DNA from: Solirubrobacterales bacterium
GTDB taxonomy: Bacteria > Actinomycetota > Thermoleophilia > Solirubrobacterales > 70-9
Assembly: GCA_035573435.1 (NCBI GenBank)
Contig: DATMZR010000012.1
Location: forward strand, 62,001 to 126,000
DNA length: 64,000 nt
Direction of reading: 5' to 3'
The position numbers and the translations under genes are program-made. Positions 15,095 through 16,771 of this stretch are shown piece after piece. Position 1 is the stretch's first letter. Each line of letters begins with the position of its first letter. The notes under the pieces are model-generated. The model was not told the origin of the DNA and made no database searches. It saw only the letters and a program-made list of their open reading frames with translations.

Positions 15095-15478
15095 CTACCT
15101 CGGCCCCGGCGCCTTGCGCTTGCCGGCGACGCTCATTCGCCTGGGGCCCTTGCGGCTGCGGGCGTTGGTCTTGGTTCGCTGTCCCCTGACCGGAAGGCCG
15201 CGCCGGTGGCGGAGCCCACGGTAGGCGCCGATCTCGGACAGCCGCTTGACGTTCTGGGAGCGCTCGCGGCGCAGGTCCCCCTCCACCTCTTTGGACTCGA
15301 CCGCCTCGCGAAGCTTCACGACCTCGTCGTCGGTCAGGTCCTTGACGTAGGTGTTCGGATCCACCCCGGCGCTCTCGACGAGCTTGCCGGCGGTGGAGGG
15401 GCCGATTCCGTAGACGTAGGTGAGGCCCACCTCGACGCGCTTGTTGAGCGGGATGTTTACGCCAGCGATACGAGCCAA
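15095..15478 (-). CDS. rpsM: 30S ribosomal protein S13
   Basis: The 127-aa product begins [26 protein letters not shown] and carries the conserved [29 protein letters not shown]-terminal tail that reaches the P-site. S13 sits in the 30S head and bridges to the 50S subunit. It lies between rpmJ (18 bp upstream) and rpsK (10 bp downstream). No anomalies. Confidence 0.97.
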
Positions 15479-15496
15479 ATCAGTCCCCCCGCAACC

Positions 15497-15610
15497 TCAA
15501 CCCTGCCGCTGCTTGTGGCGCGGGTTCGAGCAGATGACCAGCACGACGCCGCGCCGCCGAATCACCCGGCAACGCTCGCACATCGGCTTTACGGACGCTC
15601 GAACCTTCAT
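15497..15610 (-). CDS. rpmJ: 50S ribosomal protein L36, zinc-binding form
   Basis: This 37-aa protein begins [20 protein letters not shown] and ends NPRHKQRQG. The C-x2-C, single downstream C and H are the zinc-ribbon ligands of the C+ L36 type. I start at ATG 15610, preceded by AAGGGG; an in-frame upstream extension to 15685 has no L36 similarity. It is the first gene of the alpha-operon block. The usual upstream neighbour infA is not found, and a Fur-family relic on the other strand occupies that space. Confidence 0.93.
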
Positions 15611-15720
15611 CGCCCCTTCGCTGGGTCGTATCCAATCACTTTCCGGAGAAGGCCCACCGGCCCCATGAATCGGGCCCGCGGGCACAAAAAGACGGCCCCA
15701 TGGCCGATCGAGAATGGTAG

Positions 15721-15990
15721 CAGGGCAGTTACGGGCGGACCCCTAGGCCTGGCCTGGCCGACGAGGACGCCCACGGTGGCCACAACCGCGCCCCCAAAGG
15801 TCACCTGGATCGGCGACCTCGCGAGCGCCAACACCTGGTGTGCCGCCGGTGTGGCGCGGTCGAGGACCTGGAGGCAGACGTCTCCCTGAATGGAGCGCTC
15901 GGCCTGGCGGCCGAGCAGGGCTTCGCGCCCGACGGTGCCGAGGTCGTGGTCCATGGCCTCTGCGCGCGCTGCCGCACAGGGGGTGCGTGA
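15721..15990 (+). pseudogene. Relic of a Fur-family regulator (C-terminal zinc domain only)
   Basis: The 402-bp stretch between rpmJ and map contains no intact gene, but one plus-strand frame is open for 89 codons after a TAG. Its second half reads QHLVCRRCGAVEDLEADVSL and closes with VVVHGLCARCR. This is the dimerisation/metal domain of Fur/Zur-type repressors, with H-x-L-V-C-x2-C-G and G-L-C-x2-C at family spacing. Upstream, LADEDAHGGHNRAPK is faintly Fur-like, but there is no winged-helix DNA-binding domain and no start codon before the zinc motif. The reading direction opposes the ribosomal operon. I interpret it as a decayed gene; an undetected frameshift is the main alternative. Confidence 0.6.
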
Positions 15991-16012
15991 TCCGGGAGCT
16001 CGCCGGCGGCGA

Positions 16013-16771
16013 TTATTCCTCGTGCCAGGGGGTGAGAACGCGTGGGCCGTCCTCGGTGACGGCAACGGTGAACTCGAAATGGGCGGCCAGCGAGCCATCG
16101 GCGGAGTAGACCGCCCAGTTGTCCTCGCCCACACGGACCTCGGGGCTGCCGGCGTTCACCATCGGCTCGATCGCAAACACCATCCCCGGCTCGAGCTCGG
16201 GACCTCTGCCCGGCTCTCCGTAGTTGGGGATCTGGGGGTCCTCGTGCATGTCCCGGCCGATTCCGTGGCCAACCAGCGAGCGGATGATCGAGAAGCCCTC
16301 CAGCTCGACCTGGCGCTGGATCGCCGAGGAGACGTCGCCAAGCCGGTTGCGGGGCCGAACCTCTTGGGTGCCGGCGATCAACGCCTGCTTCGTGACGTCG
16401 AGCAGTCGGCGCGCCTCCGGGTTGACTGGCCCGACCGGAACCGTGATCGCCGCGTCGGCCACCCAGCCGTCCTTGGTCACCCCCACGTCGAGCGAAATGA
16501 TGTCTCCGCGCTTCAGCTCATAGGCGCCCGGGATGCCGTGAACGACCATCGAGTTCGGCGACGTGCAGATGGAGCCGGGGAAGCCACGGTACCCCTTGAA
16601 GGAGGGCTCTCCTCCCTGCGACGCTATGAAGCGCTGCGCAGCCTCGTCGAGCTCCGCGGTGGTGATGCCGGGATGGCACTTGGAGCTCAGCATGCGGAGG
16701 CAGCGGGCCTGGATCGCCCCCGCGGCGGCCATCAGCTCGATCTGCTCCTCGGTCTTCCGGACTATCGGCAC
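16013..16771 (-). CDS. map: Methionine aminopeptidase, type I
   Basis: MetAP removes the initiator Met from nascent chains. The 252-aa sequence shows the five metal ligands: Asp in SLDVGVTKDGW, Asp in VADAAIT, His in GHGIGRDMHEDP, Glu in AIEPM and Glu in FEFTVAV. The substrate-gating His is in VVHGIPG. GTG 16771 (VPIVRKTEEQIELM) is the preferred start; the open frame continues upstream but overlaps adk and loses similarity. It follows adk as in many bacterial spc-alpha clusters. Confidence 0.95.
   Translation of the reverse strand: MPIVRKTEEQIELMAAAGAIQARCLRMLSSKCHPGITTAELDEAAQRFIASQGGEPSFKGYRGFPGSICTSPNSMVVHGIPGAYELKRGDIISLDVGVTKDGWVADAAITVPVGPVNPEARRLLDVTKQALIAGTQEVRPRNRLGDVSSAIQRQVELEGFSIIRSLVGHGIGRDMHEDPQIPNYGEPGRGPELEPGMVFAIEPMVNAGSPEVRVGEDNWAVYSADGSLAAHFEFTVAVTEDGPRVLTPWHEE

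Follow-up and report, generated by a model that had tools for sequence, protein, structure and literature searches.

A probable deletion scar of a divergent fur/VIT gene pair inside a ribosomal gene cluster of a Solirubrobacterales bacterium

The interval between rpmJ and map in the 64,000-nucleotide stretch of DNA analysed here (hereafter the window) is very probably a deletion scar in a resident pair of divergent genes, encoding a Fur-family regulator and a VIT-family membrane protein, and the product of ordinary gene decay. The features on which the argument depends are these:

15497 to 15610, minus strand: rpmJ (L36), the downstream neighbour, intact
15640 to 15722, minus strand: extended -10-like element TGCTACCAT and structured rpmJ 5' leader, from an alignment of 30 genomes
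15746 to 15750, minus strand: 5-bp tandem duplication AGGCC, from comparison of the VIT 3' ends of G000 (the window's genome), G001 and G016
15751 to 15831, minus strand: remnant, some 26-27 codons long (LALARSPIQVTFGGAVVATVGVLVGQA), from the 3' end of a VIT-family gene resembling the MbfA membrane domain
15829 to 15837, no strand: deletion junction, the 9 bp between the aligned remnants
15832 to 15990, plus strand: fur remnant, the last 52 codons and stop, Fur C-terminal zinc/dimerisation domain
16013 to 16771, minus strand: map (methionine aminopeptidase), the upstream neighbour, intact

The plus-strand open frame at 15721-15990 runs for 89 codons from stop to stop, contains the zinc motif HLVCRRCG...GLCARCR and ends in HLVCRRCGAVEDLEADVSLNGALGLAAEQGFAPDGAEVVVHGLCARCRTGGA. 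Only the portion from about 15832 to 15990 is Fur; the preceding 15721-15831 is unrelated to Fur and for most of its length lies opposite the 3' end of a different gene. The Fur portion opens with the third His of the HHH motif, continues with VCRRCG ... GLCARC, and retains all four structural-zinc cysteines as the CxxC pairs CRRC and CARC (15838-15990) expected of a Fur dimerisation domain. At the hinge, the cluster of histidines for the regulatory metal is represented by RQH at the junction instead of HHH. The winged-helix DNA-binding domain and the hinge are absent, as is the greater part of the first dimerisation strand, about 91-92 codons being missing by comparison with G001. The window copy thus shares the C-terminal CxxC...CxxC zinc/dimerisation domain of the Fur superfamily (PF01475: Fur, PerR, Zur, Mur, Nur, Irr) but, lacking the winged helix, is unable to bind DNA as its members do. 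The original prediction, of a Fur-family relic between rpmJ and map with a zinc domain, neither start codon nor winged helix, and an orientation against the operon, is borne out on each point. No start lies upstream of the zinc motif, the first in-frame ATG, GTG or TTG being a GTG at 15838 within it, and the remnant lies on the plus strand while the ribosomal operon, rpmJ and map included, is on the minus strand. A relic is also preferred to a gene in another frame or behind a frameshift: no frameshift or error in the reads would yield a complete gene, since the part encoding the winged helix is missing altogether rather than shifted.

Profile support for the fragment by itself is modest. NCBIfam Fur-family models match it with e-values down to 2.9e-6, while Pfam FUR gives E = 0.016 and 15.8 bits, under the cut-off of 23.1, as is expected of a fragment; with the same model, complete Furs from the syntenic loci reach 86.7 and 70.3 bits. 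A match to ribosomal L37e (E = 0.008) fell below the cut-off and was set aside as a chance zinc-ribbon match. Fur homology is settled by comparison with relatives. When the fragment was used as query against 60 of these, the best matches were in G003 and G001, of the same genus, and G016, of the same family: 71% identity for G003 (E = 9.7e-24), 64% for G001 and 53% for G016. With tblastn, the intact syntenic Fur of G001 gives 66% over 59 residues (E = 2.6e-21). In a tree of Fur sequences the relic clusters with the Furs of the rpmJ-map interval.

As had been suggested as a check, complete fur genes were sought at the same place in close relatives, and they are found in two of the three same-genus genomes (G001 and G003) and in one further member of the family (G016). 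The intact proteins have 149 residues in G001, 146 in G016 and at least 130 in G003, where the contig edge intervenes. In G001 the order is rpmJ, a VIT gene (minus strand), fur (plus strand), an ICMT-type methyltransferase gene (minus strand) and map; in G016 it is rpmJ, VIT, fur and map; in G003, whose contig ends just upstream of fur, it is fur, methyltransferase and map. The third congener, G002, has in its interval the methyltransferase gene and a gene which, from its sequence, we take to be penicillin-acylase-like; no fur was found there. An NCBIfam profile search with the G003 relative of the acylase-like gene gave no match.

The order of genes in G001 and G016 accounts for a second remnant, on the opposite strand, which was missed in the first reading of the sequence. 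VIT alignments to the minus strand of the window cover 15751-15825, the exact end of the VIT gene, with 80% identity to the intact G016 gene over 25 residues (E = 2.4e-6) and 60% to that of G001, and both the strand of the remnant and its position relative to rpmJ match those in the relatives. Only the last 26 or so codons survive of the VIT membrane domain, and their stop is out of frame: where G001 reads GGCCAGGCG-TAG, the window reads GGCCAGGCC-AGGCC-TAG, and it is this 5-bp tandem duplication (15746-15750) that displaces the stop codon. A 175-residue minus-strand frame at 15607-16134 was considered as a new fusion gene and rejected, since it reads through the VIT tail and the strand opposite fur, in GC-rich DNA.

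The VIT remnant directly abuts the fur remnant. Homologous points that lie 9 bp apart in the window are separated by 780 bp in G001 and 781 bp in G016, so that about 771 bp are missing relative to these genomes, comprising 140 VIT codons, the intergenic region with the promoter/operator region common to both genes, and the missing fur codons. This loss, together with the duplication at the VIT stop, is disabling, and neither remnant can work as regulator or transporter. Truncated frames, a small indel at the stop and intact syntenic orthologues in close relatives are familiar from deletion-type bacterial pseudogene remnants; unlike the usual examples, here two adjacent divergent genes have been beheaded together and their tails fused. 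The rpmJ-map intervals of other genomes showed no convincing similar remnant of Fur or VIT. The neighbouring map shows dN of 0.075-0.122 and dS of 0.68-0.80 against the congeners.

Within the ribosomal cluster, the rpmJ-map interval is a slot of variable content. Among relatives (L051-L106) it is usually 100-250 bp long. Within the family its cargo differs, with an LtrA-family gene in G005, acylase-like genes in G002 and G003 and fur/VIT in G001 and G016, and some other members have unidentified genes there. In other bacteria, infA often sits between map and rpmJ. A remnant of infA was therefore considered here and discarded: infA lies on another contig (G000:C6:67310-67501, L002), outside the ribosomal cluster, and none was found in the rpmJ-map intervals examined in the order, the gene itself being found in 57 of the 61 genomes of the set. 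A search of the literature on this locus found nothing.

What the lost pair did may be judged from the intact copies. The intact VIT gene scores above the Pfam VIT1 cut-off and matches positions 165-318 of NCBIfam MbfA (NF045676) at 1.7e-53, a match to the membrane half from which the ferritin-like half is absent. MbfA of alpha-proteobacteria is an iron exporter transcribed under the control of the Fur-family regulator Irr, and its N-terminal ferritin-like half is required for transport (PMC7762939). The VIT gene of the relatives resembles this membrane-bound ferritin/VIT-family exporter in its membrane half and in having a Fur-family gene as partner but, unlike MbfA, encodes only 166 residues without the N-terminal ferritin-like half, and the window keeps just the 26-codon tail. 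With all NCBIfam equivalog cut-offs missed, nothing identifies the regulator as Irr. Divergent fur/VIT pairs also occur in the order away from the ribosomal cluster (L007, L008, L009, L014, L016, L045-L047), and several fur/VIT intergenic regions have a similar block, TATAGCAA ... TTAAGATAAGGTGCACCTAA, with a short palindrome. The block with its palindrome (e.g. TAAGGTGCACCTAA) is conserved in the fur/VIT intergenic regions of L005 (1177-1236), L006-L009, L014, L016 and L045-L047; lying between the divergent genes, the palindrome may be an operator. In the ancestor, a Fur-family regulator likely controlled the metal exporter encoded divergently from it, the direction of control and the metal, most likely iron, being inferred.

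The following history would account for the scar. The genus ancestor would have had a complete fur gene (plus strand) divergent from an MbfA-like VIT-family transporter gene (minus strand) between rpmJ and map, with a methyltransferase gene of the ICMT family adjoining map in the same slot. A four-gene marker tree places G003 outside the window's genome, G001 and G002 (0.903), so that the simplest assumption is that both fur and the methyltransferase were already there in the genus ancestor. In the lineage of the window, a loss of some 771 bp would then have taken the 5' portion of each gene together with the promoter/operator that separated them, leaving the surviving 3' ends joined tail to tail; the 5-bp duplication, earlier or later, would have cost what is left of the transporter gene its in-frame stop. 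The methyltransferase gene, present beside map in all three congeners and absent here, would have been lost as well. Both remnants, the intact syntenic copies, the length of the missing piece and the duplication are seen directly in the sequences; that the deletion was a single event, in what order the events came, and that the methyltransferase gene was lost and not simply never acquired are what we infer.

Decay by point mutation is slight. Between G000 and G003, the 44 comparable Fur codons differ at 5 first, 7 second and 25 third positions, and dN is below dS. Since the differences are mostly at third positions the loss is probably recent, and may be too recent for relaxed constraint (dN/dS near 1) to show; the bias fits a recent loss and is also compatible with remaining constraint on the remnant.

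The slightness of this decay is what might be expected if the living genome kept an intact pair and the assembler had skipped the 771 bp. The deletion is seen in one assembly, a metagenome-derived genome in 43 contigs, and its fragmentation likewise favours an artefact. That explanation is nevertheless improbable: the 5-bp duplication removing the VIT stop is a second, independent lesion, the methyltransferase gene of the congeners is gone too, and the genome, estimated to be 97% complete, contains neither another VIT-family gene nor a second Fur of the type found in the slot. Its single other Fur lies beside a ZIP transporter and is only about 22-30% identical. The absence of a partner Fur also weighs against the proposal that the 52-residue zinc/dimerisation domain might be translated, with the GTG at 15838 or some non-standard codon as its start, and kept as a stand-alone zinc-binding micro-protein, for example a dominant-negative partner of a Fur protein. 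The open frame, the four zinc cysteines and the still coding-like substitutions would all suit such a product, to which we would nonetheless give very little credence, since there is no plausible start or ribosome site, initiation at the sole in-frame start would lose the last His and the Leu ahead of the zinc motif, and the truncated form was found in no other genome searched.

The original prediction had supposed an insertion that was later trimmed. The trimming stands, as an internal deletion of about 771 bp, but the pair appears to have been resident already in the genus ancestor. Insertion into the slot does happen, as the varied cargo across the family attests; that foreign DNA entered the cluster of this genome alone and was then trimmed is all the same most improbable, given that the same fur is intact at the locus in relatives and groups with the relic, and that the interval has no recognisable mobile-element gene. 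A deletion within the resident fur/VIT pair remains the preferred reading.

The deletion stops short of the rpmJ leader, which is intact. At 15640-15722 on the minus strand, TGCTACCAT matches an extended -10 element, and the leader, which precedes rpmJ throughout the family, can be aligned across 30 family genomes regardless of the gene upstream of it. Covariation in its hairpin is 0.336 against 0.171 in shuffled alignments, none of 500 shuffles being as high, and slid controls reach at most 0.086; three of the five pairs change on both sides, with 29 double-changed cells against 8.2 in shuffles, and the conserved loop is about GAYUCMU. A model of the leader matches the window at 4.4e-17 and, in each of the 37 family genomes searched that carry it, scores best upstream of rpmJ, with two weak extra matches besides the rpmJ sites; 30 of the 37 were in the training alignment and match by construction. 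Rfam gave nothing at gathering score over 15400-16100, which includes the leader. A weak, sub-threshold match to Alpha_RBS was seen at the start of rpsM (15446-15499, minus strand; 22.2 of 38 bits, E = 0.007). The rpmJ leader differs in families f2 and f4 of the order (L091, L096, L103, L098, L088, L084, L104, L082), and several of those in f2 have in common GGTAGCGG ... CAGAGCC. The leader of the window's family could be an undescribed regulatory leader of the rpmJ-rpsM-rpsK-rpsD-rpoA operon, and it is reasonable to suppose that deletions reaching into it would be selected against.

The locus offers a small, clear example of how a deletion scar can be read, from two fused tails on opposite strands and intact pairs in relatives, and documents that one lineage has lost a metal-regulated exporter module from the rpmJ-map slot among its ribosomal genes. 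That slot, with its variable cargo between map and the structured rpmJ leader, is of wider interest than the relic, and the leader is the more interesting element here than the Fur remnant itself.
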